Positions 12,538 through 34,409 of a DNA stretch of 64,000 nucleotides are shown one piece after another. The stretch's first letter is position 1. Each line of letters begins with the position of its first letter. The position numbers were made by a program, and so were the translations under genes. Source of the DNA: Gammaproteobacteria bacterium. Its GTDB lineage: Bacteria; Pseudomonadota; Gammaproteobacteria; Pseudomonadales; IMCC2047. The stretch is taken from contig JAJFKB010000005.1 of NCBI GenBank assembly GCA_021773395.1, positions 1-64,000 of the forward strand, written 5' to 3'. The notes beneath the pieces are model-generated. The model was not told the DNA's origin and ran no database searches. It saw nothing but the letters and a program-made list of their open reading frames with translations.

Positions 12538-15150
12538 TTAGAGCTGCCGCCAATTAACGGTAACGCCGTAGGTTCTTGGTGTGCCGAATAATGCATAATC
12601 ATTTCCGCCCAGTACATATAGGTGGGCAATATACTCTTCATCCAGTAAATTTTTTGACCAGAATGAGACTTCCCATTTATTGCTGCTGGAACGGTACCCC
12701 AGGCTGGCATCAAGTAAATCAAAAGCCGGTTGAACGGTGATGCTGTTGTCCGGCTCTCTAAAACTCTTGCCCTGGTAGCGGTAGTCCAGGTTGGCTATCG
12801 CATGGCCTTCAAATATGCGCCATTGGTAGTTTAAGCTCATATCAAAGGAGTGTTTGGGTGCTTGTCGCAGACGGTTGCCGTTAAAATCACGGCCAGTGGT
12901 ATCGTTAAAACTATCGTATGTGGCTCTCAGGTAGGCATAGGAGCCTGAAATCTCCAGACCTTCCATCGGATGAAAAACAAACTCGGTTTCTGCACCGTGC
13001 AGCGTGGCCGAGGCGGCATTGGCAGTTTCAAAAACCCCGAAATTGTCTACTGTTCTAAATTGTACCACCTGTAAATCGCGAAAATCTGTATAGAAGGTGG
13101 CAAGGTTGAGTCGAAGGCGGTTACGTAGCCACTCACTTTTAATGCCGAACTCGTAGTTCCAGGCCGTTTCCGGGTCGATACGGCGTTTGGCCAGCGCCAG
13201 GCTACCAGGAGCACCCTGAAAGCCTCCACTTTTGAAGCCTCTTGATACGCTGCCATAGATTAAAATATCTTCTTTGGCCTGGTAGGCGAGTGCTAATGAC
13301 GGTGAAAAATCGTCCCAGGAACCATGCTCGGTTAGCTGGAAATTTTCCAGAATAATGGCTGGCGCATCGCCATTTTCGGCAGATTGATTTAATCGCTTTT
13401 CGTCGTGGGTATATCGTGCACCAAAGGTAATGCTGTGACGTTCTGTTAGCGCGTAGTCAGCCTGTCCAAAAAGTGCGTAGCTATTGGTTTTATTTTTTTG
13501 GATGGTAATGGCTGTACCCGTTGCAAATGGAAACTGCTCCTGGCGCTCGGTGCGCTCATGTAAATAGTAGAGCCCAACAACGTAGCGTAACGTTTGATCT
13601 TCGTTAGAGGTCCAGCGAAATTCCTGAGAAAATTGACGATGTGTTTCGTCGACAGCTGTGCCAATTCGCTGATTGGTGATGGTTGGTGGAAGTCCCAAGG
13701 AGTCTTCCGCCCAGGTAAACTCAGAATCCCGGTAGCCAGTAATAGATGCAAACTCTCCCCAGTTGTTTTCCCAGGTGGCTCTCGCAGTGGTTCCCCATAT
13801 GGAGCGATCCGTGTATCCGCTCAGACCATTAGTTGCATGTTCGAAATCGCCGCCTAACGCTTTGAAAATGTCTGTCGGAAGTCTGCTTTCTAATAGCATG
13901 TTTCCGGAGCTGTCTTTAACCGTTTCTCCGGCACTGTTCACTATAGGGATAAGCTTCCCTTCAGCATCAAGAATAGGAATGGGCGTGCGTCCGGCGACTG
14001 GTATTCTGCCTGACGAGTTCAGGTTGTCCCAGGTATAGTCGGCACCCAGCTTCAATGAAAAGCGTTGGTTGGGTAAATAGGAAAGCTTGCTACGTACGCT
14101 CAGATTCTCTCGCCCGTGCTGGTCGTCTCCCAGGAAAATATTCTTTTGCCAGCCGTCAGTACGATTTCCCGCTAATGCCACTTTCGCCAGTAGTGTATCG
14201 CGTTTAATCGGTCCACTGGCAGCGACGCTAAGCGCGGCATGGTTATAATTCCCGACTGTCGCAGCTAGGCTGACTTCAGGCTCTCGCGTGGGTTGCTTGC
14301 TGATGACGTTTATCGCGCCGCCGATGGTATTTCTGCCATAGAGGGTTCCTTGCGGGCCACGCAACACTTCGACGCGTTCCACATCGGTCAGGCTAACATC
14401 TATTGAGCTAATGCGGCTGACAAAAATATCATCGAGGTAAACGATCACGGAATTGTCCAGTGCAGCGCCATCATCATTGGAGCCAATGCCGCGCATATGG
14501 ATGGTTGGCTGACCCAGACTGAAATAGGACACAGTAAGCCCTGGGACCTTTGGCCCTAATCCACCCAGATCATCAATTCTGGCGCGTTCAAGTTGCAGGC
14601 TGGAAAGAACGGATATTGCTTTAGGGATGCGCTGCAGATTTTCGCTTCTTCGTTGCGAGGTGACGATCACTTCTTCAATGGGGCTAATGCCATTAATATC
14701 TTCTGGATAAGGTGGAATGCCGGTATCTTCATCGGTTTCTGAGTTTAGTACGGGTTTCGGGTAATCTGGTGAAACTGAAACGGTGTTGCGATCGAGAAAG
14801 CGATAGCCCAAATCTGTATTTATTAGAAGTACATTGAGGGCCTCTATAACGGTCATTTTTCCGATGATAGGTTGTTTGGATAGGATGTTGCCGTATTGGC
14901 TGGGCATGACAATGGTGAGTCGAGCCGTTTGCCCGAGTTTAATAACAGCTTGTGATAATTCTTGCTTGGGGATATCGAATTGATAAGTTCGCTGATCAGT
15001 ATAGTCTGCGGAAAAGGCGATACTGGCATACAAAAACAGTAGGGCTGCCGCAATACGCAATAGTCGGTATTGCCATATTGTGCATCCCCCGTTTGTGTTA
15101 GCAATCGAAGAAAAGCTGCGCGACCGACGACCGAATTTCGGTCCTATCAA
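12538..15150 (-). CDS. TonB-dependent signal-transducing receptor with STN domain (FecA-type)
   Basis: After a hydrophobic signal segment (LRIAAALLFLYASIAFSA) comes an STN domain (YQFDIPKQELSQAVIKLGQ ... VIEALNVLL). Then follow a TonB box (IEEVIVTSQRRSENLQRIP), plug (VEVLRGPQGTLYGRNTIGG) and barrel ending VTVNWRQL. The STN domain lets a receptor signal loaded state to a FecR-type protein, and exactly such a gene lies upstream with an ECF sigma gene. I chose the TTG at 15150 because GGAGGAG stands seven bases before it. An earlier in-frame TTG at 15183 and a later TTG at 15060 (giving MRIAAALL...) are alternatives. The substrate is unknown. A C-terminal relic of a sibling gene lies at 9729-9899. 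Confidence 0.9.
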   Translation of the reverse strand: MIGPKFGRRSRSFSSIANTNGGCTIWQYRLLRIAAALLFLYASIAFSADYTDQRTYQFDIPKQELSQAVIKLGQTARLTIVMPSQYGNILSKQPIIGKMTVIEALNVLLINTDLGYRFLDRNTVSVSPDYPKPVLNSETDEDTGIPPYPEDINGISPIEEVIVTSQRRSENLQRIPKAISVLSSLQLERARIDDLGGLGPKVPGLTVSYFSLGQPTIHMRGIGSNDDGAALDNSVIVYLDDIFVSRISSIDVSLTDVERVEVLRGPQGTLYGRNTIGGAINVISKQPTREPEVSLAATVGNYNHAALSVAASGPIKRDTLLAKVALAGNRTDGWQKNIFLGDDQHGRENLSVRSKLSYLPNQRFSLKLGADYTWDNLNSSGRIPVAGRTPIPILDAEGKLIPIVNSAGETVKDSSGNMLLESRLPTDIFKALGGDFEHATNGLSGYTDRSIWGTTARATWENNWGEFASITGYRDSEFTWAEDSLGLPPTITNQRIGTAVDETHRQFSQEFRWTSNEDQTLRYVVGLYYLHERTERQEQFPFATGTAITIQKNKTNSYALFGQADYALTERHSITFGARYTHDEKRLNQSAENGDAPAIILENFQLTEHGSWDDFSPSLALAYQAKEDILIYGSVSRGFKSGGFQGAPGSLALAKRRIDPETAWNYEFGIKSEWLRNRLRLNLATFYTDFRDLQVVQFRTVDNFGVFETANAASATLHGAETEFVFHPMEGLEISGSYAYLRATYDSFNDTTGRDFNGNRLRQAPKHSFDMSLNYQWRIFEGHAIANLDYRYQGKSFREPDNSITVQPAFDLLDASLGYRSSSNKWEVSFWSKNLLDEEYIAHLYVLGGNDYALFGTPRTYGVTVNWRQL

Positions 15151-15431
15151 AACTATTCTCCTCCCCCCAGTTGTACTGGTCAAACTCTACTTTTTATGAT
15201 TATTTTGGTGAGCTTGCTGCCTGCCTATTTTACGTTGGCAGGGTAACAATTCTCCTGAGGCATCAGTTCAACATGACTGAAGAGCACTGATTTAACAGGT
15301 TTTCGTTTAGTTCCCGCTATCTTCCTACTCGCTACTACCGGGTTCCTCTATACAGCAGTTGCGTTACAAGTCAGATGCTGTAAACGGGGAATAATTATAT
15401 AGGAGTCTTGGGGGAATGGGGAGGTTTGCAA

Positions 15432-16442
15432 TTATTTTTTGGGGTAAAGCAGTGTAAGTTCCTTTGATGTTTCAACGGATGCCAGGTTAAAGGTTTCCTC
15501 AAGCACTTGCAGTGTGCTTTCTTTATCTTGTAACTGGAGTACAGCCACTACTTTCAAATTTTCCAGTACTGCGTCGCCGACTCTGATTTCCCCTTCAAAA
15601 TAGCGGCTTATATCCTGTAGTACCTGAACAAAAGATTCTCCGTTGTATATGAGTTTGCCTTCGCGCCAGGCGACCACTCTATCAGCATCGGCTATGTTTT
15701 GTATCTGGGCGACCTGGTCGCCTAAAATGGTGGTTTGTTGATCTTGAGACAACCTGGCTTCTGTTGCGAACTGCTGTTCTGCGACCTGTTTTACGTCCAA
15801 GTTGGAGGTGACGCCAACAGAGCCTTCCAATACGGTGACGGTGCTACCCTGTGGACCGCTCAAGACATTAAATCGCGTGCCCAGCACTCGCACGATACCG
15901 CTCTCGGTCTTCACCATAAAAGGGCGAGAACTATCTTTGGCGACATCAAAAAAGACTTCGCCTTTATTCAATACTATCAGACGACGTTTTTCGTCTATGT
16001 CTGCCCGCACAGACGAGTCAGTATTCAAATATAGATGTGACCCATCTTCCAGTACAAAATCCAGCTGATCGCCCACTGCGGTAGTATATTGGTTATTTTT
16101 ATAGTCCAGGAACATCAGGCTGAGTAGCCCGACCATAAAAAAGGCCAGGGAAGCGGCGAGCGCACGCGGCAGTATGCGTTTGCTCAGCGGTAAAGCGATC
16201 ACATTATTGTTGGTTGCTGAAATATTTTCAGCAGAGTCTGCTTTGCGCAGAGGTGTTTCCGAAACCTCAGCTCTTTGCCAAAGCCATTCTGCTTCGATAT
16301 AGGCTCGCTGGTGCGCTGAGCTTTTTTCCAGCCAGGCATAAAAAAGCTGTTCTTCGTTGGACGATAGCTCTTCGGATTGCAAGCGAACCAGCCACTCAAT
16401 GGCGGTATCTGAAACGCTGTTATTTGTATCTGTTGTGTTCAT
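15432..16442 (-). CDS. FecR-type anti-sigma factor / sigma regulator
   Basis: The 336-residue protein starts with a DUF4880-type anti-sigma helix bundle (AIEWLVRLQSEELSSNEEQLFYAWLEKS...HQRAYIEAEWLWQRAE). A single membrane span (LAASLAFFMVGLLSLMFLDY, roughly 95-115) leads to the periplasmic FecR domain (YTTAVGDQLDFVLEDGSHLYLNT, GEVFFDVAKD, RVLGTRFNV). A C-terminal DUF4974-like part is expected to touch the receptor's STN domain. It should hold the ECF sigma factor at the membrane and release it when the STN receptor upstream in the pathway binds substrate. The gene order is sigma, anti-sigma, receptor on one strand, which is the classic FecIRA arrangement. The gap to the receptor is about 280 bases and probably holds the sigma-dependent promoter. 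Confidence 0.93.
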   Translation of the reverse strand: MNTTDTNNSVSDTAIEWLVRLQSEELSSNEEQLFYAWLEKSSAHQRAYIEAEWLWQRAEVSETPLRKADSAENISATNNNVIALPLSKRILPRALAASLAFFMVGLLSLMFLDYKNNQYTTAVGDQLDFVLEDGSHLYLNTDSSVRADIDEKRRLIVLNKGEVFFDVAKDSSRPFMVKTESGIVRVLGTRFNVLSGPQGSTVTVLEGSVGVTSNLDVKQVAEQQFATEARLSQDQQTTILGDQVAQIQNIADADRVVAWREGKLIYNGESFVQVLQDISRYFEGEIRVGDAVLENLKVVAVLQLQDKESTLQVLEETFNLASVETSKELTLLYPKK

Positions 16443-16509
16443 TAAACTCTATTTGTTGAATCCCATGTTCTTCTACCAGTTAAACGAATGAATCCGGGAC
16501 TCCCTCAAT

Positions 16510-17046
16510 TTATTTCAAATTTTCTCGTAAGTGCTTCAAAGCACGGATGATATACTTTTCCACCATGCTTACTGACACCCCCAGAGTATTGCCTATTTCA
16601 CCGTAAGTCATCTGCTGGCCACGGTGCATGAGAAAAGCCTGTCGACACTTCTCCGGCAATTCGTCAATGGATTGATTTACGCGAGCCAACTCCTGTCTGG
16701 TAATGATAAGATTTTCCGGTGAAGGAGAACGAAGATCCTCTCTATCGGTCGACTCTTTCGCTAGTGAGCGTAAATGGCCGTCGCGCCTCTGTGATTTTCG
16801 AATGCGGTCAATTGCCAGGTTCATAGCCGTCTGGTAGAGATAGCTTTTGGCATTTTCCAGGCGCTCTGGTTCCGTAACGGCCAACATTTTTTGAAAAGCA
16901 GACTGCGCGACATCGGCTGCTTCGTCAGGACTAGATAGCTTGCGCGTGAGAAATTTCAGGAGTGCAGTGTTGTGCTCCCGGAATAAGTCTCTTATGAATT
17001 TCTGTGATTCCTGGTCTGTGCTCAATTTGTTTTCCCACGCATCCAT
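16510..17046 (-). CDS. FecI-type ECF sigma factor
   Basis: At 178 residues it has the size of an ECF sigma factor. Region 2 is visible (FREHNTALLKFLTRKLSSPDEAADVAQSAFQKML, then AKSYLYQTAMNLAIDRIRKSQRR). Region 4 follows (IDELPEKCRQAFLMHRGQQMTYGEIGNTLGVSVSMVEKYIIRALKHLRE), with the helix-turn-helix that reads the -35 box. The -VSMVEKYIIRALKHLR- ending is that of the iron-type FecI group. It is followed 67 bases later by its FecR partner. The target is most likely the STN receptor gene and perhaps the neighbouring receptor. The gene starts next to a long divergent intergenic region. Confidence 0.93.
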   Translation of the reverse strand: MDAWENKLSTDQESQKFIRDLFREHNTALLKFLTRKLSSPDEAADVAQSAFQKMLAVTEPERLENAKSYLYQTAMNLAIDRIRKSQRRDGHLRSLAKESTDREDLRSPSPENLIITRQELARVNQSIDELPEKCRQAFLMHRGQQMTYGEIGNTLGVSVSMVEKYIIRALKHLRENLK

Positions 17047-18360: not shown

Positions 18361-19827
18361 ATGGATTTACCCACTCTCATACCAACCATTCTTTGTGGCG
18401 GTGCCGGTTCCAGATTATGGCCAGTTTCCCGTTCTTTACACCCCAAGCCTTTTTTGCAACTCCAGGACGGAGAAAGTCTACTGCAAAAAGCCTTCATCAG
18501 AGCGGCAGCGCTGCCTAATGTTGATGAAATTCTGACGGTGACAAACCGGGATTTGTTATTTAAAACCCGGGACGAGTACCAAACCTTAATCAGCGATGAC
18601 AAACAGCCGATTTTGCAGAAATACATCCTTGAACCTGTTGGCAGGAATACCGCTTCTGCAATAGCAATAGCCGCTGTCGAAACAGCTCGAGCGCATGGAG
18701 AGAACGCGCACATGCTGGTGCTTCCAGCAGATCAGCTTATTGAAGAGCATGGGGCGTTCCAGCAGGCTGTTGCCCAGGCAATCGAGTTGGCAAATACAGG
18801 GAAATTGGTGACCTTTGGTATAAGGCCACAATCTCCAGAAACAGGGTATGGGTATATTGAGGCCGCTGGTAGCGAAGTGATTCGTTTTGTTGAAAAGCCG
18901 GATTTTGAGAAAGCACTATCCTATATTCAGTCTGGAAATTTCTGTTGGAATTCAGGGATGTTCTGTTTTTCTGTTGGTGCAATGCTGAGGGAGTTTGACC
19001 GACTTTGCCCGGATTTATTGGCCAATGCCAGACGGTGTCTGGAGGAGGGGCGTTTAGCGCAGGGTGATGGATATTTGCAGCTCGAGCTTGGTAGCGCATT
19101 TGCCCAAATGCCTGATCTTTCCATCGACTACGCCGTAATGGAAAAAACTGATAATGCGGCGGTAGTTGCTTGCGATATTGGATGGAGTGATGTGGGGTGC
19201 TGGAAAGCCCTGGGTGAGTTAACGGCGGCTGATGATAACAATAATCGAGTGGAAGGAGAGGCGCTGCTGCACAATACAACCAACTGCACGATTAAAAGCT
19301 CAGGCCGATTTATCGGTACGGTAGGGATTGATAATCTGGTTATTGTTGATACACCGGATGCACTTCTGGTTGCTGATAAGCAGCATACGCAGGATGTGAA
19401 AAGTATATACGCAACACTCAAGGGTATGGATCATGAACTGCACAAGGAACACAGGACTGTTTGTCGCCCCTGGGGTAGCTATACCGTATTGCAGGAAAGT
19501 GATAACTACAAAATCAAGCGAATAGAAGTAAAACCAGGAGCGTCGCTAAGCTTGCAGTCTCACCGGCATCGTGCCGAACACTGGGTGGTGGTAAAAGGGC
19601 AGGCCAAAGCGCTAAACGATGACCGGGAACTGGTTCTCAACCTTAATGAGTCGACCTATATTCCGGCAGGTTGCAAACACAGATTGTCGAATGAAACTAA
19701 CGAAGCAGTTACTATAATCGAAGTGCAGAGTGGGAGTTATTTGGGGGAGGATGATATAGTTAGGTTTGATGATGACTATGGTAGACCAATATCCCATAGC
19801 CTTGAATGTAAATGTTTCTCTAAATAA
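18361..19827 (+). CDS. manC: Mannose-1-phosphate guanylyltransferase / mannose-6-phosphate isomerase
   Basis: The 488-residue protein has the size of the bifunctional type II enzymes (AlgA/ManC/WbpW). The nucleotidyltransferase part starts ILCGGAGSRLWPVSR (from residue 10) with PKPFLQL and later FVEKPDF. The C-terminal cupin/isomerase part reads RPWGSYTVLQ...IEVKPGASLSLQSHRHRAEHWVVV...YIPAGCKHRL. It makes GDP-D-mannose from mannose phosphates, the precursor for the dehydratase encoded at the end of the cluster. A strong AAAGGAGA ribosome-binding site lies before the ATG. It leads a plus-strand run of seven genes for a surface polysaccharide. Confidence 0.95.
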   Translation: MDLPTLIPTILCGGAGSRLWPVSRSLHPKPFLQLQDGESLLQKAFIRAAALPNVDEILTVTNRDLLFKTRDEYQTLISDDKQPILQKYILEPVGRNTASAIAIAAVETARAHGENAHMLVLPADQLIEEHGAFQQAVAQAIELANTGKLVTFGIRPQSPETGYGYIEAAGSEVIRFVEKPDFEKALSYIQSGNFCWNSGMFCFSVGAMLREFDRLCPDLLANARRCLEEGRLAQGDGYLQLELGSAFAQMPDLSIDYAVMEKTDNAAVVACDIGWSDVGCWKALGELTAADDNNNRVEGEALLHNTTNCTIKSSGRFIGTVGIDNLVIVDTPDALLVADKQHTQDVKSIYATLKGMDHELHKEHRTVCRPWGSYTVLQESDNYKIKRIEVKPGASLSLQSHRHRAEHWVVVKGQAKALNDDRELVLNLNESTYIPAGCKHRLSNETNEAVTIIEVQSGSYLGEDDIVRFDDDYGRPISHSLECKCFSK

Positions 19828-19875: not shown

Positions 19876-20670
19876 ATGCCTCTGATGTTTCATGCACTTT
19901 GGCGGTACCGATACTTCGTTTTAAGTTCCGTTCAAAATGAAATAAGGGCCCGGTTTGTCCGTAGTCGGCTAGGTGGACTTTGGATTATTCTTAATCCGCT
20001 TGCCCAGGTGGCCATATATGCAGTTATTCTATCTAATGTATTGGCCGCAAAGATTCAGGGCATCGATAACAAGTATTCTTTTGCTATTTACCTGACTGCC
20101 GGCATCATGGGTTGGAGTCTGTTTTCAGAGATAATCAATCGTTGCCTAAACCTTTTTATTGCCCACGGCAATCTGATGAAAAAAGTCATGTTTCCAAAGG
20201 TCGTGCTGCCCGCTGTTGTTGTAGGAACCAGCGTGTTTGATAATTTTATGCTCTTTCTGGCAGTTTTAGGAGTTTTTGCTTTTCTGGGACACTTGCCAAC
20301 CTGGGAGGTGCTATGGTTGCCCGTTATTATTGCTACGACAGTGATTTTGGGAATAGGTTTCGGGCTCATTTTAGGTGTTTTAAACGTCTTTGTCAGGGAT
20401 ATTAGTCAGGTAGTACCAATCGTTTTGCAAATAGCATTCTGGTTTACTCCCATTGTTTACCCCTTATCAGTTATCCCTGAATCTTATCGCTATCTGCTAC
20501 AGTTTAATCCGATGTATCCACTTGTTAAAGGATACCAAGATGTGCTCGTATACGGAGTCAAACCAGATATTCATAGCATTACCATGATTCTAATTGTTGG
20601 CACGCTTATGCTGGTTTTTAGTTTTTTCCTTTTCCGTCAAGCGAGCGAAGAAATGGCAGATGTGTTATGA
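19876..20670 (+). CDS. wzm: O-antigen ABC transporter permease
   Basis: This 264-residue protein has about six membrane spans and an ABC-2 type permease layout. Its amphipathic start FVLSSVQNEIRARFVRSRLGGLWIILNPLAQ is diagnostic for Wzm/KpsM-type polysaccharide exporters. NVFVRDISQVVPIVLQIAFWFTPIVYP is the conserved region before the last helices. It forms the channel that moves lipid-linked O-polysaccharide to the periplasmic face. The gene ends ATGA-overlapped with the ATPase gene, as is usual for wzm-wzt pairs. Confidence 0.95.
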   Translation: MPLMFHALWRYRYFVLSSVQNEIRARFVRSRLGGLWIILNPLAQVAIYAVILSNVLAAKIQGIDNKYSFAIYLTAGIMGWSLFSEIINRCLNLFIAHGNLMKKVMFPKVVLPAVVVGTSVFDNFMLFLAVLGVFAFLGHLPTWEVLWLPVIIATTVILGIGFGLILGVLNVFVRDISQVVPIVLQIAFWFTPIVYPLSVIPESYRYLLQFNPMYPLVKGYQDVLVYGVKPDIHSITMILIVGTLMLVFSFFLFRQASEEMADVL

Positions 20671-21887
20671 GCCTGATGTCGGTTCAAGCTTTAGGTAAAG
20701 CCTACAAATCGTACAAGTCTGAATGGCATAGAGTAGGCCGTTGGTTAGGACTTCCTATAAAGCCCAAAGAAGAGCATTGGGTTTTGCGGCATATAAGCTT
20801 TGATATCCGTAAAGGGGAGGCCATCGGCATCATTGGCCAGAACGGCGCGGGTAAAAGTACATTGCTAAAGTTAATCACTGGGACAGCGCAGCCAACTGAA
20901 GGGCGAGTGATAGTTAATGGTCGCATTGCTGCGATACTTGAGCTAGGCATGGGCTTTGATGCTGAGCTAACTGGTAGGCAGAATGTTTTTCATGCTGCGG
21001 GGCTGATGGGATTTAGTTACGACCAGATAGTGGATGTTATACCTCAAATCGAGGGATTTGCTGAGATAGCAGAGTACTTTGATGAATCAGTGCGAACCTA
21101 TTCTAGCGGTATGCAAGTGCGTCTGGCTTTTTCAGTGGCTACCGCCTGGCGACCTGAAATATTAATTATTGATGAGGCATTATCTGTCGGTGATGCTTAT
21201 TTTCAGCATAAAAGCTTCAGTCGGATCCGAGAGTTCCAGGAAGATGGAACTACCTTATTGATCGTCTCTCATGATCGAGCAGCTATCCAAAGCCTATGTG
21301 ACCGGGCTATTCTACTTGAAAAGGGGGTGGCTATTAAGGATGGTAATCCAGAAGAAATATTTGATTTTTATAATGCATTGATTGCAGAAAAGGAAAATAA
21401 GACGGTATCTCTGACACCAACTGATAATGGAAAGATGCAAACCAGTTCAGGCACAGGGGAAGCGAGGGTGGAGCGCATAGCTATCTATAACAGCCAGGCT
21501 GAAGAAGTTGATTTTGTGAATGTTGGTGAGCAAATTGAGCTTCAGGTAGAAGTAAAAATATATAAGAAGTTGGAGACTCTTGTATTTGGGTATGGCATCA
21601 AAGATCGGTTGGGGCAAGTTATGTATGGTACAAATACATGGCATACGAAGCAGGTAATTGAAGGTCCTCATGAGGGGGGTAAGTACCTTTTTAGAATTGC
21701 TTTTCCCGTCAATCTGGGTGTGGGGAGTTATTCAATTCAAACAGCTTTAACAGACCGTGATACCCACCTCATAGCAAATTACGAATGGAGAGATCTAGCG
21801 CTTGTGTTTAACGTAATCAACACAGATAAAACTTTTTTTGCAGGATGTTTGTGGAACCAGCCAGAGATAACGGTAGAAGAAGCCTAA
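20667..21887 (+). CDS. wzt: O-antigen ABC transporter ATPase with carbohydrate-binding C-terminal domain
   Basis: The first roughly 245 residues are an ABC ATPase with Walker A GQNGAGKST (57-65), signature YSSGMQ (S147) and Walker B EILIIDEAL. A linker then leads to a Wzt-type C-terminal beta domain (about residues 265-400). In the E. coli O9a system that extra domain recognises the non-reducing-end cap of the finished chain. Its presence predicts that this polysaccharide also carries a terminating modification, and a methyltransferase gene follows directly. The four-base overlap with wzm supports co-translation. Confidence 0.94.
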   Translation: MSLMSVQALGKAYKSYKSEWHRVGRWLGLPIKPKEEHWVLRHISFDIRKGEAIGIIGQNGAGKSTLLKLITGTAQPTEGRVIVNGRIAAILELGMGFDAELTGRQNVFHAAGLMGFSYDQIVDVIPQIEGFAEIAEYFDESVRTYSSGMQVRLAFSVATAWRPEILIIDEALSVGDAYFQHKSFSRIREFQEDGTTLLIVSHDRAAIQSLCDRAILLEKGVAIKDGNPEEIFDFYNALIAEKENKTVSLTPTDNGKMQTSSGTGEARVERIAIYNSQAEEVDFVNVGEQIELQVEVKIYKKLETLVFGYGIKDRLGQVMYGTNTWHTKQVIEGPHEGGKYLFRIAFPVNLGVGSYSIQTALTDRDTHLIANYEWRDLALVFNVINTDKTFFAGCLWNQPEITVEEA

Positions 21888-21889
21888 AT

Positions 21890-23572
21890 ATGACATTTAT
21901 ATCCTTCGCTCAGAATTATGAAGATGTGATGCTGTATCGTGCCTTAAAAAATGTCGATAAGGGTTTTTATATTGATGTAGGGGCAAATGATCCAGTTATT
22001 GATTCTGTTACAAAAGCTTTCTATGAAAGGGGTTGGCGTGGAATTAACATTGAACCTGTCGCCGGTTGGTATGCAAAACTAAAGCAGAAGAGGCCGGAAG
22101 ATAATAATATTCAGGGGGCAGTTGGTGCGCACAAGGGTGAGGTAGGTTTTTATGAAGTAGTGGATACCGGTCTTTCCACGATGGAGAAGGCTATTGCTGA
22201 GAGACATGCGAAAGAAGGTGGTTATGAGGTAAAGAGCTATCAGGTACCGTTGATTACTTTGACAGAAATATGCCTGCAACAAAAAACACAGGAAATTCAT
22301 TTTTTAAAGATTGATGTTGAAGGAGCTGAGCAGTCTGTCCTAGAAGGATTGGACTTAAAAAAAATAAGGCCATGGATAATTCTAGTTGAGTCTACCTTGC
22401 CTAATACACAGATTGATAGTTACCAGGGGTGGGAGGAGCTACTCACAGATAGGGAGTATCATTTTGTCTATTTTGATGGTTTAAACCGTTATTACATAGC
22501 TAATGAGCGTAAGGAGATTGATTCTGCTTTTAATGCCCCTCCAAACTTTTTCGATCATTTCAAAAGGTGCAACGAAGACTGGGCAGAAAAGCACAACCAG
22601 AAGCTCCAAAATGAATTAAACGAGATAAAAATTCTTGAGGGTGAAAGAAGTTTTTCTGGTGTGGACGAGCGTGTTGCAGAAGCTGAAAAAAGAGCAGTTG
22701 CGGCTGAGGTTCGGGCCAAGGAAGCAGAGATTCGAGCTGGGGAGACAGAAATCCTTAGCATTGAGGCAGAATCACAAAAGAACAGCTATAAATCTCAAAT
22801 TAGTGAACTAAATGCTATTGCAAAAGAGAAAGGTGCTCAATTAGAGCAGTTACAAGAAAAGATCGACGAGTTGCAATCTGAGCTCAGTGACGCAGAAGGA
22901 TTGGCCGGTGAGTTAAAGTCTCGAATCAAAGTACTAGAGGCCAGGGCAGTGGAGGCTGAAACTCGTGCCAAAGAAGCAGAATCTCGCGCAAACAGTTATA
23001 AGTCTAAAGTCAACGAAATAAACACCGTTGTAAAAGATCAAGAAATTCAACTAAAGCAAAGGCAAGAAGAGAACCAAGGTTTGAAAGCTGAGCTCGAGAC
23101 AGTGCATGCTTCGAACCATCATCACTGGAATCTTTCGGAATTACGAGAGACACATATAAACGCTATTTACAATAGTCTTTCCTGGCGCCTTACGGCGCCA
23201 CTTCGCTGGGTGGGTGCGCACTTAATTTCAGTATGCAATTTTTTTCGTTACAAAACAGTGCAAATGTTTGAAAGAGCAAAAAAATTATGCGTAGCTATGC
23301 TAATTAAACTTATACGGTTGGTGTTGCGGCACCAAGGTTTAAGTAATAAAGTTAACAATCGGCTATTAAGATTTCCAAGACTACATGCTTGGTTGATCAG
23401 GATAGTTTCCACCAGCCCTGAAAGCAGCGGACGATCCAGCGATCCATCTGAGGCAGAGTCCACATGCTCAGAACCTCCCTCCGATAGTGTTGAGAATCTA
23501 ACGGCAACGGCGCGCGCGGTTTATGAGAAACTCCAGGCTTCTCTTGCTTGTCGATTTCCAGACGAATCCTGA
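21890..23572 (+). CDS. FkbM-type methyltransferase fused to a long coiled coil (candidate chain-terminator/ruler)
   Basis: Residues 1 to about 205 form an FkbM-family SAM-dependent methyltransferase (YIDVGANDP, then FLKIDVEGAEQSVLEGL). Residues about 225-415 are a heptad-rich coiled coil. The C-terminal part has an IYNSLSWRLTAPLRWVG motif and basic hydrophobic helices likely to bind membrane. The coiled coil contains repeats: RAVAAEVRAKEAE (from 268) and RAVEAETRAKEAE (from 352) are 84 residues apart, and the two NSYKS copies are 70 apart, both multiples of seven. It follows wzt directly, as the terminator WbdD does in polymannan clusters, where methyl capping and coiled-coil length set chain length. 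The ATG at 21890 was preferred over an upstream one inside wzt. Confidence 0.85.
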   Translation: MTFISFAQNYEDVMLYRALKNVDKGFYIDVGANDPVIDSVTKAFYERGWRGINIEPVAGWYAKLKQKRPEDNNIQGAVGAHKGEVGFYEVVDTGLSTMEKAIAERHAKEGGYEVKSYQVPLITLTEICLQQKTQEIHFLKIDVEGAEQSVLEGLDLKKIRPWIILVESTLPNTQIDSYQGWEELLTDREYHFVYFDGLNRYYIANERKEIDSAFNAPPNFFDHFKRCNEDWAEKHNQKLQNELNEIKILEGERSFSGVDERVAEAEKRAVAAEVRAKEAEIRAGETEILSIEAESQKNSYKSQISELNAIAKEKGAQLEQLQEKIDELQSELSDAEGLAGELKSRIKVLEARAVEAETRAKEAESRANSYKSKVNEINTVVKDQEIQLKQRQEENQGLKAELETVHASNHHHWNLSELRETHINAIYNSLSWRLTAPLRWVGAHLISVCNFFRYKTVQMFERAKKLCVAMLIKLIRLVLRHQGLSNKVNNRLLRFPRLHAWLIRIVSTSPESSGRSSDPSEAESTCSEPPSDSVENLTATARAVYEKLQASLACRFPDES

Positions 23573-23588
23573 AAAAAGAGGATAATAA

Positions 23589-26500
23589 ATGCGGATCGTA
23601 ATTGATCTACAAGGCGCTCAGTCCAGCGGTTCTCGTGATAGAGGAATTGGCAGATATGTAAAGGCTATATCAAAAGCGCTAATTCGCAACAAAGGTAAAC
23701 ACGAGATTATGCTTGCTCTTAATGGAATGTTTCCAGAAACCATACAGAGCATTCGTGAGGAATTTGATGGGCTTATATCGCAGAAAAAGATATTAGTATG
23801 GGATGCCGTTAGGCCGGTAAACCATATAGATGGAGCGTTTAAATCGAATAGAAATACGGCGGAATTATTGCGTGAAGCTTTTATTGCAAGCTTAAATCCA
23901 GATGTTGTTTTAATTACCAGCCTATTTGAAGGTTTAGTTGATGACGCGGTAACAAGTATTGGCGCACTCACTAACAATGTCCTTACAGCTAGTATTGTTT
24001 ACGATCTGATTCCTTACCTAAACCGCGAAGTTTATTTGCAAAATCCGGTAACTGAAACCTTTTACGAGGAAAAAATTGGGCATCTGAGGCGTGCTGATCT
24101 TTTGCTCGCAATTTCTGAATCATCTCGGCAGGAGTGTCTGTCCTACCTGGGGTTTCCGAAAAATTTAGTGGTTAATATATCGACAGCTGCGGATTCTCAT
24201 TTTTTTCCTGAAGCGATTGCCGAAAAAGAAGAGTCAGAATTACGCTGTCGTTATATGCTCTATAAACCCTTCGTTATGTACACTGGTGGCATAGATTACC
24301 GTAAAAATATTGAAGCTTTGATCCGTGCTTATGCAAGTCTTGAGATAAGTCTTCGCAAACAGCACCAGCTAGCAATCATCTGTTCTGTGCAGCCTGAAGA
24401 AAAAAGACGGTTAGAGAATATAGCAAAAAGTAAGGGGTTAAAAAAGGGTGAGATAATATTAACTGGATTTGTCCCCGAGAAAGATTTGGTCTCGCTTTAT
24501 AACCTATGTAAGCTATTTGTTTTTCCTTCATTGCACGAAGGTTTTGGTTTGCCAGTACTGGAAGCGATGAAATGTGGAAAAGCTGTTATTGGATCGAATA
24601 CGTCGAGTATTCCAGAAGTGATCGGTCGGGATGACGCCCTTTTTGACCCTGCTAATGATGAAGCAATCGCTGCAAAACTGGGGCACGCCCTACTAGATGA
24701 TGTTTTTAGGGCTCAATTGGAAGAGCACGGAATTAACCAAGCAAAAAAGTTCACTTGGGAGCGCAGCGCTAGGAGAGCGATAAAGGCATTAGAAGAAATG
24801 TATGCCGAGCACGAAAAAGCCAAGACGTTTGTCTCATTTTCCCGTAGGCCGAAGATGGCTTATGTTTCACCGTTGCCGCCTGAACGCAGCGGTATAAGTT
24901 ATTACAGCGTTGAGCTTTTACCTGAGCTGTCGCGTTATTATGATATCGACGTTGTTGTAGATCAAAAATTAGTATCAGATCCCTGGGTTAGCGCTAACTG
25001 TAGAGTTCGAGATATTAATTGGTTTAGATCGAACGCTCGTAGCCATGAACGCGTACTCTATCATTTTGGTAACTCCACTTTTCATCAACACATGTTTGGG
25101 TTGCTGGAGGAAATACCGGGTGTTGTTGTTCTGCATGACTTTTTCTTGTCGGGTGTTGTGGCGCATATGGAGAATAGTGGGGTACAGCCCGCTAGTTGGT
25201 CGGAAGAGCTTTATTTTTCACATGGTTATAATGCTATGTGTGACAAATTTAGTACCCGAAATATTGTCGATGTAATCTGGAATTACCCGTGCAATAGAAG
25301 CGTCTTAGCCGGTGCGGATGGAATTATTGTCCACTCTGAAAATTCCAGACGTTTAACAGAACATTGGTATGGGGCGAGCGCAAGTAAAGCTTTAAACCTA
25401 ATTCCCTTATTGAGAGCGCCAGCTGTAACTGTGGATCGAGGTGGTGCGTGGCAATCTTTGAACTTAAAAGAAGGTGATTTTGTTGTTTGTAGTTTCGGTT
25501 TACTAGGAAACACAAAGCTAAATCACCGTTTAATAAATGCTTGGTTAGATTCCGATTTGGCCAAAGAAAAAAATTGTTTTCTGGTGTTTGTCGGTGAAAA
25601 TGATCCGGGTCAATATGGGCAACAAATTTTAAAGGTAGTTAAAGAAAATAAGTGTGCCACAAACATCTTGATAACTGGCTGGGCAGATAGTTCTACCTAT
25701 AGCCGCTATTTGGGTATTGCTAATATTGGTGTACAGCTTCGCAAATTGTCTCGTGGTGAAACTTCTGCAGCAGTTTTGGATTGCATGAATTATGGGGTGC
25801 CAACGATTGTTAATATGAATGGAAGTATGGCTGATCTACCGGATAAAGCAGTGCTAAAAATACCAGACGAATTTAGTGATGCACAATTAACGGAGGCATT
25901 GGAAAAGCTTTGGAGAGATGAGTGCTTGCGAGAAAAGCTGGCAAATAATGCGAAGAAGTATATATTTTCTAACCATTCTCCAAGGCAATGTGCCTATCAG
26001 TATTTCAATGCTATTGAGGGGTTTAGAGATAGAGCCGAGACAAGTGTTGGGTCGCTAACGGGAAAAATAGCTGAACTAGAACCTCTTATTACTGAGACTG
26101 ACCTGTTATTGAAATTATCGAATTGTATTGCTCATTCGATATTTCCCAAGTTCACGTTGCCACAAGTGCTTGTTGATGTAACTGAGTTGGTAAATGTTGA
26201 CCCCGAAAAAGGCGAGTATTCGGGGAAACAGGCTCTGCGGCAATTATTGATGAGAACGGCCCTTGGTTTTCGTGTGGAACCTGTGTATGTCATACCTAAC
26301 AAAGGGTACTATTATGCCCGTAATTTCACTTCAGAATTGTTAAATTTTCCGCGAAATATTCTAAAGGATGATCCAATAGAGTATAGAAATGGAGACATCT
26401 TTATAGGTCTCTCATTAAAGCCAGAGATTATTTTACCGCAGCGCCAGTTTTATCAATCTTTGATTCGGTATGGTGTGGTTGTAAAGTTTATCGTGGATGA

Positions 26501-27284
26501 TCTGATATTTCTCCAGGAATTAACTGTTGTTCAAAATGCACAAGGCAACAAAGATTGCTTGAAAGTAGTCGCGGAAAGCCACGGAGCAATTTGTTTTTCA
26601 AAGATCGTGACCGATGAGCTTATGGATTTCTTTTTAAATGAGAGTGGGCAACAAACTTTTTTTGGAATTGATTGGCTTCCTTTTGGTTTGGATTTTGATA
26701 AATTGAAGAAACAGAAGGTGCTATCAAAGGTGGTGACTGTAAAACCTCGATTTACCAAAGAACATCGTAGCTTTTTGATGGTTGGTAGTATAGAGGTCCA
26801 CACAGGCCATACTCAAACACTGGAGGCCTTTGAGCAGCTATGGCAAGAAGATTCAAAGGTGGATCTGGTTATTCTGGGTAAGCAAGGTTGGATGGTTGAA
26901 GAGTTTACAGAAAAGCTGCGTTCTCATAAAGAACTCAACAAGCGACTTTTTTGGTTTGAAGATATTCCTGAAGAGTATCTGATTCAGATATATAAAGATT
27001 CTACTTGCTTGCTTGTTGCTTCTGAGAGCGAGAGATTTGATCTTCCGCTAGTCGATGCGGCGTGTTATAAGCTACCTTTAGTTTTCAGAGAGACTCCGTT
27101 CTATAAAAACATTGCGGGCGAGCATGCATTTTACTTTAATAATGATGACTCACCCAATGCACTAGTGAGTGCCATTCGAGAATGGTTGATATTATATGAA
27201 TCCGATAATCACCCGAAACCCAAACTGATAACGAAGTTAACGCTACCGACTGTCGTTAAGCCTTTGCGCTGCGAGAGCTACTAA
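23589..27284 (+). CDS. Three-module GT4-type glycosyltransferase for the O-polysaccharide
   Basis: The 1231-residue protein holds three glycosyltransferase-B modules. Module 1 (1 to about 420) opens MRIVIDLQGAQS...RGIGRY, typical of polymannan mannosyltransferases such as WbdA/WbdB, and has the canonical EGFGLPVLE motif (E317/E325). Module 2 starts near residue 423 (MAYVSPLPPERSGISYYS), with GETSAAVLD at the matching site. Module 3 runs from about 858 (QVLVDVTELV), with ERFDLPLVD. The changed E-x7-E sites in modules 2 and 3 suggest altered or lost catalysis in one or both. It should polymerise the rhamnose or mannose backbone on undecaprenyl-diphosphate in the cytoplasm. A ribosome-binding site (AAAAGAGGA) precedes the ATG, 16 bases after the methyltransferase gene. 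Confidence 0.9.
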   Translation: MRIVIDLQGAQSSGSRDRGIGRYVKAISKALIRNKGKHEIMLALNGMFPETIQSIREEFDGLISQKKILVWDAVRPVNHIDGAFKSNRNTAELLREAFIASLNPDVVLITSLFEGLVDDAVTSIGALTNNVLTASIVYDLIPYLNREVYLQNPVTETFYEEKIGHLRRADLLLAISESSRQECLSYLGFPKNLVVNISTAADSHFFPEAIAEKEESELRCRYMLYKPFVMYTGGIDYRKNIEALIRAYASLEISLRKQHQLAIICSVQPEEKRRLENIAKSKGLKKGEIILTGFVPEKDLVSLYNLCKLFVFPSLHEGFGLPVLEAMKCGKAVIGSNTSSIPEVIGRDDALFDPANDEAIAAKLGHALLDDVFRAQLEEHGINQAKKFTWERSARRAIKALEEMYAEHEKAKTFVSFSRRPKMAYVSPLPPERSGISYYSVELLPELSRYYDIDVVVDQKLVSDPWVSANCRVRDINWFRSNARSHERVLYHFGNSTFHQHMFGLLEEIPGVVVLHDFFLSGVVAHMENSGVQPASWSEELYFSHGYNAMCDKFSTRNIVDVIWNYPCNRSVLAGADGIIVHSENSRRLTEHWYGASASKALNLIPLLRAPAVTVDRGGAWQSLNLKEGDFVVCSFGLLGNTKLNHRLINAWLDSDLAKEKNCFLVFVGENDPGQYGQQILKVVKENKCATNILITGWADSSTYSRYLGIANIGVQLRKLSRGETSAAVLDCMNYGVPTIVNMNGSMADLPDKAVLKIPDEFSDAQLTEALEKLWRDECLREKLANNAKKYIFSNHSPRQCAYQYFNAIEGFRDRAETSVGSLTGKIAELEPLITETDLLLKLSNCIAHSIFPKFTLPQVLVDVTELVNVDPEKGEYSGKQALRQLLMRTALGFRVEPVYVIPNKGYYYARNFTSELLNFPRNILKDDPIEYRNGDIFIGLSLKPEIILPQRQFYQSLIRYGVVVKFIVDDLIFLQELTVVQNAQGNKDCLKVVAESHGAICFSKIVTDELMDFFLNESGQQTFFGIDWLPFGLDFDKLKKQKVLSKVVTVKPRFTKEHRSFLMVGSIEVHTGHTQTLEAFEQLWQEDSKVDLVILGKQGWMVEEFTEKLRSHKELNKRLFWFEDIPEEYLIQIYKDSTCLLVASESERFDLPLVDAACYKLPLVFRETPFYKNIAGEHAFYFNNDDSPNALVSAIREWLILYESDNHPKPKLITKLTLPTVVKPLRCESY

Positions 27285-27307: not shown

Positions 27308-28371
<1,064 letters not shown>

Positions 28372-28372
<1 letters not shown>

Positions 28373-29229
28373 TGAGGGTTCTCGTAACAGGGCTTTCTGG
28401 CTTTACCGGGCAATATGTGAAGAATGCGCTGGAAACTAAAGGTCATCAGGTAGTAGGTTTGAGTAGTGACCTGACAGTATCTAGAGATCTGCTGAAAGAA
28501 ATCGAACAAGTGCAGCCTCAGGCGGTGATTCATCTTGCTGCAATTGCATTTGTCGGTCATGGTAATGCTAATGCTTTTTACGAAGTCAATTTGATTGGTA
28601 GTCGCAACTTACTACATGCTTTGGCCAAGAAAGCACCTGATGTAAAAAGCATATTATTAGTAAGCAGTGCAAACGTATACGGCAATAGATTCGAAGGTGT
28701 TCTATCAGAAGAAGATACTCCAGATCCTGTAAATGATTATGCGGTCAGTAAGCTAGCTATGGAGCATATGGCCAGATTATGGCATGATCAGCTTCCTCTA
28801 TTTATAGTTAGGCCTTTTAACTATACTGGGGTCGGCCAAAGCGAGAACTTTCTCATTCCCAAAATCGTCGATCATTTTAGACATAAAAAACAAACTATTC
28901 AGTTGGGTAATCTTGATGTTTACCGGGATTTCAGTGATGTCCGGTCGGTGGCAGATGCTTACTGCGGTTTAATTGAATTCCCTCCCATTGGTAGAACTTT
29001 AAATATATGTTCGGGTGAAACCCACTCAATACGTGAGATCATCGATTTATGTATAGAAAACACTGGGCACGCAATAGAGGTACAGGTAGCCCCGTCTCTT
29101 GTGAGGAAGAATGAGGTTAAAGTGCTGAAGGGGGACAAAAGTCGATTAATGGAAGTACTTGGTAGTTGGGATAGCATAAACTTCCCAAAAACCTTGCAGT
29201 GGATGCTTCGCACAAACCGAGATTACTGA
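28372..29229 (+). CDS. rmd: GDP-4-keto-6-deoxy-D-mannose reductase (GDP-D-rhamnose synthesis)
   Basis: The 285-residue SDR has VTGLSGFTGQYV at the N terminus, SSANVYG, and the catalytic pair Y123/K127 in DYAVSK. It lacks the length and motifs of Fcl (GDP-fucose synthase) and looks like Rmd, which reduces the keto sugar to GDP-D-rhamnose. Coupled to gmd by a TAATG overlap, it makes D-rhamnose the most likely backbone or side sugar of this polysaccharide, as in the Pseudomonas A-band antigen. A related reductase giving a different 6-deoxyhexose (for example 6-deoxy-D-talose) cannot be excluded by eye. Its end overlaps the convergent membrane-protein gene by seven bases. Confidence 0.85.
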
Positions 29230-33681: not shown

Positions 33682-33791
33682 TATAAAAAGGTGCAAAGGT
33701 TTTTAGTGTTTCTCGGTGAAATAATACGATTTGTATAGATAGAGGTTTACTCTAACTGAAGTTGCAATGGATTAGCAAAGAGCTCAAATGT

Positions 33792-34409
33792 ATGAAGAAA
33801 AAATCAATGTTTGAAAATATTTTGATAAAACCAATCTTGAGAGTGGTTCTTGTGTGTTTCCTGTTGTTGGGTCCACAAATCATCAAAGCCAGCCCGATTT
33901 TGGATGTACCTATTCTTGGAGGTAACTTTTTTGTAGCCAGCGATGGAAAGGTGCAGGCTCGTTTTCTGGGAAGTGATACCGATTATGAAAGTACATTGTT
34001 TCTCGTTTCACCAGGAGATCTGGGAAATACAGGAATTTTCACTGTTACCAGCCAACCGGGCAGCGCATTTGATTTAGGCTACCATAGTGCAGGGACTGAG
34101 TTGGTGTTTAAATTGAGTGTTCACAATTCACAGCAAAACTATTTCTCTGGCGCAGCAAGCCGAAATCCCGATGGAATTGCTCATGCTATGGCAACCACTA
34201 GTCTGCTGGATAATGATCTATATGTAACAAGAGTTGGATTTGAGGATCTTTTTAATGGTGGTGACCGGGACTTTAATGATTTTACATTTGAATTGTTCAA
34301 TGTAATAGACCCTCCCGGTGCAGTCGCCGAGCCTTCTGTGTTTATGTTATTTTTCTGTGGAATATTCAGTATGGTGATATTTATTCGCCGTCGCCAAAAC
34401 GGATATTGA
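33792..34409 (+). CDS. PEP-CTERM-like exported protein with DUF4114 domain
   Basis: The protein has 205 residues counted from the ATG at 33792; an in-frame TTG ten codons earlier was not chosen. It has a signal peptide (ILRVVLVCFLLLGPQIIKA-SP) and a beta-rich domain with FEDLFNGGDRDFNDFTFEL, the DUF4114 calcium-binding-like motif. The C-terminal sorting signal is AEPSVFMLFFCGIFSMVIFIRRRQ: a degenerate EP motif, one hydrophobic span, then arginines. Such proteins are cut by an exosortase and released as part of the extracellular matrix. No exosortase is visible in this window. The position between two glycan gene sets and its own sigma-54 promoter suggest a link with exopolysaccharide or floc formation. 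Confidence 0.8.
   Translation: MKKKSMFENILIKPILRVVLVCFLLLGPQIIKASPILDVPILGGNFFVASDGKVQARFLGSDTDYESTLFLVSPGDLGNTGIFTVTSQPGSAFDLGYHSAGTELVFKLSVHNSQQNYFSGAASRNPDGIAHAMATTSLLDNDLYVTRVGFEDLFNGGDRDFNDFTFELFNVIDPPGAVAEPSVFMLFFCGIFSMVIFIRRRQNGY

Follow-up and report, generated by a model that had tools for sequence, protein, structure and literature searches.

The gene at positions 21,890 to 23,572 of the DNA analyzed here (the window, the whole stretch of 64,000 nucleotides) encodes a protein of 560 amino acids that, judged from its architecture, its locus and its relatives, probably terminates the chains of an ABC transporter-dependent D-rhamnan and acts as the ruler of their length. It joins an FkbM methyltransferase head to a long coiled coil and to a C-terminal tail of the type found in WbdD. 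Coiled-coil terminators of ABC transporter-dependent glycans are an established class (PMC11231755, PMC5082667, PMC13168486). Using the definition given in PMC11231755, the protein belongs to this class by architecture and locus, as its candidate terminating enzyme sits at the distal end of a long coil and its gene accompanies those of a Wzm-Wzt exporter. We found no literature that joins FkbM enzymes with Wzt or with O-antigen coils, which is a weak absence, as most subscription journals lay outside the search. We therefore describe the protein as a variant within a known class, with a WbdD-like chassis and an FkbM head.

RESULTS

Operon and methyltransferase head. The genes are arranged in the order manC-wzm-wzt (with the Wzt_C domain), the gene for the 560-amino-acid protein, a three-domain GT4 polymerase, gmd and an rmd-like reductase (Table 1). 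The start codon (ATG) at 21,890 lies 2 bp past the wzt stop codon (21,887), and a start at an alternative ATG (21,845) would lengthen the protein by 15 residues. Over residues 1 to 404, the polymerase shares 40% identity with E. coli O9 WbdA. In its operon with manC and wzm, the gene thus follows wzt and precedes a WbdA-like polymerase, which is the slot that WbdD occupies in E. coli O9/O9a and K. pneumoniae O3. Wzt carries a C-terminal carbohydrate-binding domain, as in cap-dependent Wzm-Wzt exporters. Based on the sugar-nucleotide genes of the operon, the product polymer is probably a D-rhamnan exported by Wzm-Wzt.

Residues 29 to 191 match PF05050 (E value, 1.5e-30; 107 bits against a cut-off of 22.7; profile positions 1 to 172 of 173), and TIGR01444 also matches (1.3e-20; 74.3 bits against a cut-off of 37.7). 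The head is a member of the FkbM methyltransferase family, for which SAM-dependent O-methylation is predicted. A sequence-only reading of the window had named this domain and given the coordinates of the gene and its position directly after wzt; all of this was correct, with both FkbM models above their curated cut-offs. Unlike WbdD, the protein has no kinase match in Pfam or NCBIfam, and both place the FkbM domain in its head. A sequence search of the PDB with the 560-amino-acid protein did not return WbdD at an E value of ≤1, and a PDB search with an alignment of FkbM heads returned nothing at ≤0.1.

Table 1. Positions of the operon genes and of the domains and repeats discussed in the text
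Feature	Residues	Positions in window	Strand	Evidence
manC-like mannose-1-phosphate guanylyltransferase/mannose-6-phosphate isomerase		18361..19827	+	PF00483 1.7e-46, PF01050 1.2e-45
wzm, ABC-2 permease of the polysaccharide exporter		19876..20670	+	PF01061 2.9e-20
wzt, exporter ATPase with C-terminal carbohydrate-binding domain		20667..21887	+	PF00005 1.9e-21, PF14524 1.5e-34
Wzt_C, candidate cap-reading domain of wzt	259-396	21441..21854	+	PF14524
FkbM methyltransferase domain, catalytic head	29-191	21974..22462	+	PF05050 1.5e-30
Coiled coil, candidate ruler	247-431	22628..23182	+	Heptad Viterbi, z 7.9
First copy of internal coil repeat	258-332	22661..22885	+	Lag-70 self-match
Second copy of internal coil repeat (5-residue overlap with first)	328-402	22871..23095	+	Lag-70 self-match
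SWRLTAPLR tail domain, WbdD-type C terminus (putative membrane and polymerase docking)		23150..23569	+	Tail and WbdD-tail HMMs
Polymerase with three GT4-type domains		23589..27284	+	PF00534, three stretches, 1.6e-63
gmd, GDP-mannose 4,6-dehydratase		27335..28372	+	PF16363 4.2e-139
rmd-like reductase (putative GDP-D-rhamnose synthesis)		28372..29229	+	PF16363 4.5e-39, PF01370 8.3e-38

Coil and internal repeats. The coil keeps one unbroken heptad register over 185 residues when a home-made heptad Viterbi score is compared with 300 shuffles, in good agreement with the roughly 190 residues of coil estimated previously. Two internal repeats had also been reported, at lags of 84 and 70 residues, and both are present at these lags. 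The coil matches itself best at lag 70 (score, 133), and this match beats 300 of 300 shuffles that preserve heptad position (P = 1/301), but the lag-84 motif does not go beyond heptad composition in the same comparison (P = 0.87), and we rejected it as evidence for duplication. Of the 12 best lags (lags of ≥21), 11 are multiples of seven, which any heptad coil would give. The 14-residue insert that had been proposed to separate the two repeats is insecure, as it hangs on the alignment within low-complexity heptads. Of the 30 residues that the lag-70 copies share, 17 have the same synonymous codon, against an expected fraction of 0.46, which suggests that this duplication is old.

The tail and its homology to WbdD. 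The tail, which opens with SWRLTAPLR, is basic (16 K+R against 5 D+E in 92 residues), as had been noted from the sequence, with an amphipathic segment near residues 460 to 477. An HMM built from 26 tails of FkbM-coil proteins (alignment A4) matches positions 23150 to 23401 (E value, 2.5e-23), and this is its sole match in the window genome at ≤0.01. Of 392 genomes from the family of Pantoea agglomerans (L074; taken as Enterobacteriaceae), 49 were matched. The proteins of about 700 amino acids among these enterobacterial matches are WbdD (L207 against PDB entry 4azs, 5.7e-172; L203 against 4uw0, 4.4e-121), and the HMM also matches the named E. coli O9 WbdD, the gene between the annotated wzt (O9 family) and wbdA, at residues 584 to 650 (6.5e-11). 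Conversely, an HMM built from 12 WbdD-type tails matches 104 of 154 FkbM-family proteins at ≤1e-3 (94 of 139 distinct proteins), each time across the W of the SWR motif. It matches the window protein at residues 421 to 549 (1.3e-7) and none of the remaining frames among the 150 in the window at ≤0.01. By profile comparison in both directions, the window protein and E. coli O9 WbdD have homologous C-terminal tails. The proposal that the protein is an independent build of the WbdD device is contradicted by this homology and was rejected, as the tail is common to both; the catalytic head differs.

Heads on the common tail and the Wzt reader domain. Of the 30 enterobacterial tail loci fetched, we examined 20 at about 16 kb. 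In 18 of these, wzm-wzt lies ahead of the tail protein. The heads are WbdD (nine loci), Methyltransf_11 type (four), FkbM (four) and GT99 (one), and two proteins are headless. A single operon slot in the enterobacterial relatives thus takes at least four head types on the SWR tail. Both gmd and rmd were seen in 10 of the 20 loci, with each of the four heads represented (WbdD, L237 to L239; Methyltransf_11 type, L231 and L233; FkbM, L235 and L248; GT99, L244).

The C-terminal domain of Wzt varies with the head. When the domain of the window Wzt was compared with that of the neighboring Wzt at ≤1e-8, it matched in eight of eight FkbM or Methyltransf_11-type loci and in none of 10 WbdD or GT99 loci. 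Loci L231, L233, L242 and L243, all of the Methyltransf_11 type and candidates for an O8-type WbdD, therefore have the same Wzt C class as the FkbM loci. Normalized bits for this domain were 0.42 between FkbM and Methyltransf_11-type loci, 0.08 between FkbM and WbdD loci and 0.10 between FkbM and GT99 loci. In the same order, the controls gave 0.65, 0.53 and 0.46 for the ATPase domain, 0.46, 0.46 and 0.48 for Wzm, 0.56, 0.57 and 0.58 for ManC, and 0.37, 0.25 and 0.35 for the polymerase. This comparison covers 17 of the 18 loci, with L235 left out for its split reading frame and L229 and L230 having no assigned head. With the window and seven further FkbM loci added, 44 of 44 FkbM-Methyltransf_11 pairs of Wzt C domains match at ≤1e-3, with a mean of 143 bits, against 71 of 99 FkbM-WbdD pairs with a mean of 38 bits, which indicates that the latter domains are distantly related. 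In these loci, the cap-reading domain of Wzt follows the head, and the FkbM class is the methyl-only class and not the methyl-phosphate class. WbdD of O9a adds a methyl phosphate, whereas the O8 enzyme is a simple methyltransferase (PMC3482155). As FkbM and methyl-only heads have this Wzt C domain in common, the FkbM head probably adds a plain O-methyl cap to the D-rhamnan. The wzt C domain and the head are adjacent in the DNA, and their co-transfer could explain part of the covariation.

The closest solved Wzt is that of A. aeolicus (8dku), which is homologous over nearly the whole length of the window Wzt (residues 10 to 397; E value, 9e-80), including the cap-binding domain. The rhamnose-mannose O antigen of A. 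aeolicus is capped by a methylated rhamnose or mannose (PMC9445017). The numbering of that paper fits 8dku with an offset of one, and we took positions from the alignment by eye. Four of the nine cap-contact side chains compared are identical, namely, N323, A360, H367 and W374 of the window, which correspond to Asn313, Ala348, His355 and Trp362; the other five (Leu300, Thr346, His350, Tyr233 and Val380) are not kept. The four window residues are kept in 52, 44, 50 and 49, respectively, of 53 Wzt rows with the C domain. We found no capping enzyme named for A. aeolicus in PMC9445017, and the word methyltransferase is absent from its main text.

Relatives of the protein. Head-only patterns on genome contigs gave at least 554 confirmed relatives, of which the best 80 form the family set. 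The upstream context was read in the 76 of these 80 loci with at least 1,400 bp upstream. A Wzt with a C domain lies directly upstream in 39 of the 76, with overlapping stop and start codons in 30 of the 39. The rest comprise one Wzt without a C domain, 16 loci with a Wzt elsewhere on the same strand and 20 with none in the fetched DNA. Coils of 45 residues or more, identified by a crude rule, occur in 52 of 54 loci with Wzt against 13 of 19 without (Fisher P = 0.003; three truncated loci left out), again among the best 80 of at least 554. PF14524 was found in 53 of 58 Wzt proteins scanned, and 87 of 114 family proteins have a heptad Viterbi z above 3 (20 shuffles each).

A wider sample of FkbM proteins was drawn from 57 related genomes, in which 41 of 43 PF05050 matches were used, the window itself and one truncated match being left out. 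Only one of the 41 (L159) has the tail motif, and it adjoins a Wzt with a C domain. A second protein, L179, lacks the tail motif but is beside a Wzt with a C domain and, by the crude rule, has a coil. Of the 41 fetched stretches, 5 contain a Wzt-like frame. This indicates that ordinary FkbM proteins mostly have neither the tail nor the setting. In 7 of the best 80 (of at least 554) loci, the head and glycosyltransferase matches lie in a single reading frame. The fusion in L044 comprises head, coil, tail motif and three polymerase domains, the latter 58, 58 and 42% identical to those of the window. Such fusions support a working complex of the head protein and the polymerase in the window.

Evolution of coil length. 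Coil spacing was taken as the distance between two anchors, the D of PPNxFD where the head ends and the W of SWR, and was measured in 110 of 139 distinct proteins; the other 29 are at contig ends or without an anchor pattern, some of them with clear coils. The shortest spacing in the family is 44 residues and the longest is 511. The first set (window and relatives; n = 62 after 22 of 84 proteins were dropped) has 7, 3, 28, 6, 5, 3 and 10 proteins in classes 0 to 6 modulo 7. The second set (n = 48) was collected by searching separately within the families of L029 and L030 and within the genus of L063 (read as Rhodanobacteraceae, Xanthomonadaceae and a Massilia-like genus), with first-set proteins removed, and has 3, 2, 24, 7, 2, 4 and 6. 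The excess in class 2 has a P value of about 5e-9 in each set. These counts use strict anchors; a looser anchor gave 54 of 114 in class 2, and the pair, TRF and Viterbi scans used this looser set of 114. With one protein per 70% head identity, class 2 holds 25 of 57 proteins of the whole set (P = 7e-8), and at 80% it holds 34 of 78. The second-set part shrinks to 4 of 12 at 70% and 6 of 19 at 80%, which is too small alone to confirm the bias and indicates that this set leans on related species. The next most common classes, 6, 3 and 0, are those reached by repeated addition of four residues, i.e., stutters. With a spacing of 210, the window is in class 0, outside the main class. In the Massilia-like genus, 17 of 28 proteins are in class 2, at 86, 93, 100, 107, 114, 121, 135, 142 and 149 residues. 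Among cultured Massilia-type soil species, spacings extend from 86 to 178 residues.

The DNA of the coils points the same way. TRF found tandem arrays in 31 of 114 loci, all in frame. The period is a multiple of 21 bp in 23 of 29 arrays (P = 7e-15 against 1 in 7), the 29 being those left of 30 with at least 80% match once close relatives were removed. Among 34 disjoint close pairs, the coil length differs in 25, by multiples of seven in 9 (P = 0.006) and by other amounts in 16; 8 of the 25 differences are 3 or 4 modulo 7, a stutter in either direction. Tail lengths served as a control, with 1 of 16 differences in close pairs a multiple of seven. Tail lengths, too, are spread unevenly over the classes modulo 7 (P = 0.0007; 98 proteins), probably from shared ancestry, so raw P values on related sequences are too small. 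The coefficient of variation is 0.24 for the tail and 0.47 for the coil (95 proteins).

The sequence-only reading expected relatives to differ in length by sevens and saw heptad duplication as an easy route to such changes. The modulo-7 bias, the nine heptad differences among the 25 and the 21-bp periods agree with this, but the 16 other differences and the off-class window do not, and coil evolution strictly by heptads was rejected. The lengths fit a continuous rod whose ends keep their register and which changes often by heptads and less often by stutters or otherwise. Such quantization is evidence of a continuous rod but does not by itself make that rod a ruler. Within E. coli O9, we saw no variation in the coil of WbdD, which has 708 amino acids in the four of four records inspected (278 genomes have a partial match).

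DISCUSSION

Among the known systems, the WbdD proteins of O9, O9a and O3 resemble the window protein in the order of head, coil and tail and in the homologous tail. They differ in the head, which is FkbM without a kinase in the window, in the class of the Wzt C domain, in the polymer, probably a D-rhamnan in the window and a mannan for WbdD, and in size (560 amino acids with the motif W at 432, against 708 with the tail match from 584). The methyltransferase-only WbdD of the E. coli O8 type (PMC3482155) likewise has a lone methyltransferase head, coil and tail, but its head belongs to a different Pfam methyltransferase family. The E. coli O101/O162 protein (PMC13168486) also has an N-terminal methyltransferase and a C-terminal coil, on a different polymer; its loss abolishes O-methylation and alters chain length. 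In WbbB of K. pneumoniae O12 and ORF6 of O7, head, coil and polymerase are fused, as in L044 (PMC11231755), whereas the polymerase of the window is a separate gene. The GT99 head on the SWR tail in L244 (the locus of L217) can be likened to these two proteins. The cap added by WbbB in K. pneumoniae O12 is Kdo. That of ORF6 in O7 is a methyl phosphate (PMC11231755).

We propose the following mechanism. ManC, Gmd and Rmd would supply GDP-D-rhamnose, and the three-domain GT4 polymerase, docked on the SWR tail, would extend the lipid-linked chain at the inner membrane. The coil, presumably oligomeric, would keep the FkbM head off the membrane by about 1 nm per heptad, or some 26 nm in the window. 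A chain long enough to reach the head would receive an O-methyl group on its non-reducing terminal rhamnose, and growth would stop. The C-terminal domain of Wzt would then bind the methyl cap, and Wzm-Wzt would export the chain. For WbdD, insertions in the coil raise and truncations lower the chain length (PMC5082667). The ruler proposed from the sequence holds up in its terminator-plus-ruler architecture, the locus, the cap-binding domain of Wzt and the heptad bias, though not as an independent build.

Two alternatives concern the function of the protein. The coil and tail may merely tether or oligomerize a capping methyltransferase, with the kinetics of polymerase versus terminator, not the coil, setting the chain length. 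The tenfold variation in spacing would fit this, as would the coils in the 13 of 19 usable loci without a nearby wzt (among the best 80 of at least 554) and the modulo-7 quantization, which is expected of any rod with fixed end registers. We nevertheless consider a simple tether unlikely, given the homology of the tail with that of WbdD, in which chain length is set by the length of the coil (PMC5082667), and given that close relatives often alter the coil strongly and the tail little, in line with the coefficients of variation in the 95 proteins. Alternatively, the enzyme may be a decorating one that methylates a side group or sugars inside the repeat unit and terminates nothing. FkbM enzymes elsewhere methylate non-terminal groups, and most of those in the related genomes have neither the tail motif (1 of 41 has it) nor a wzt neighbor (5 of 41). 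In 39 of 76 loci (of the best 80 of at least 554), however, the gene of this subfamily immediately follows a wzt that encodes a cap-reading domain, and loci with other methyl-only heads share that domain, which makes decoration quite improbable.

A further alternative concerns the coil, whose internal repeats and modulo-7 pattern could be mere low-complexity heptad composition without any evolution of length. Both the lag-84 result (P = 0.87) and the 11 multiples of seven among the 12 best lags are what composition would give. The lag-70 repeat, however, beats a null that preserves heptad position, the coil DNA has periods in multiples of 21 bp in 23 of the 29 deduplicated loci with arrays of at least 80% match, and the spacing is biased in both sets although its anchors lie outside the coil. 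For the family, this explanation is already contradicted, and we regard it as highly improbable.

The reading as terminator and ruler can be extended to a cartridge system, in which one coil-tail chassis would take exchangeable capping heads, swapped together with the matching Wzt reader, and the coil would evolve by in-frame heptad duplications that tune polymer length in 1-nm steps. We give this extension an even chance. If it is true, the ladder of 86 to 149 residues in the Massilia-like genus is a natural version of the insertion experiment on WbdD. Relatives that differ mainly in coil length, often by sevens, offer an engineering-free test of the molecular-ruler model. The reading as terminator and ruler would also tie a widespread group of "FkbM family methyltransferases" to one job, the capping and length control of exported polysaccharides, and the chemistry of the cap could be predicted once it is seen which head is paired with which Wzt reader. 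If heads are exchangeable, terminators could be recognized by their tail even when they carry an enzyme of an unknown kind.

Regarding the distribution of the head itself, searches of E. coli with FkbM-coil DNA from Pantoea or from L248 gave no match. The FkbM head was found at 40 to 55% identity in 16 plasmid records.

Coils, tails and exporters in the relatives

Very long coils were seen at four of the relatives' loci (L064, L080, L081, and L057), where the spacing from the D of PPNxFD at the end of the head to the W of the SWR motif is approximately 366 to 511 residues. A 270-bp repeat is present in L064, and the Wzt near the long-coil genes of L064 and L081 is short (approximately 265 amino acids), with no match to the C domain. 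The coil DNA of another relative, L082, contains a repeat of 33 bp (11 residues), which is a hendecad and not a heptad unit. A His/Trp-rich stretch (for example, HHWW) approximately 20 residues ahead of the SWR motif recurs in several relatives.

At L229 and L230, the tail is also found in stand-alone frames that have a coil but no head. These are flanked by manC and polymerase genes, and no match to wzm-wzt was found around them in the 16 to 18 kb of DNA per locus. L229 has an additional FkbM-and-tail frame.

In a genome from the window's genus (L007 and L198), a large protein combines a coil, an SWKVSSPIRW motif, and additional domains, and it is possible that this protein is another user of the tail. 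Frames resembling wzm and wzt (24% and 40%, respectively) are located close to it.

Two enterobacterial FkbM loci have split reading frames, in wzt and the sugar genes (L235) or in the FkbM gene (L245); these were treated as separate frames.

Other genes of the window

Near the tandem, similar frames that we take to be TonB-dependent-receptor-like, there is presumably a further frame of this kind, together with FecR-like and sigma-factor-like frames. The first tandem stretch lies in two frames.

Positions of features in the window and the relatives
Locus	Position	Feature
Window	7208-9562	Presumed TonB-dependent-receptor-like, first of tandem (frames 7208-8506 and 8516-9562)
Window	10100-12382	Presumed TonB-dependent-receptor-like, second of tandem
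Window	12538-15183	Presumed further TonB-dependent-receptor-like frame
Window	15432-17046	Presumed FecR-like and sigma-factor-like frames
Window	33762-34409	Frame with putative PEP-CTERM-like sorting signal at C terminus
Window	residues 409-413	His/Trp-rich stretch (NHHHW)
L009, L010, L030, L074		His/Trp-rich stretch
L229	7405-8004	Headless coil and SWR tail, 200 aa
L229	15300-16349	FkbM and tail, 350 aa
L230	8295-8894	Headless coil and SWR tail, 200 aa
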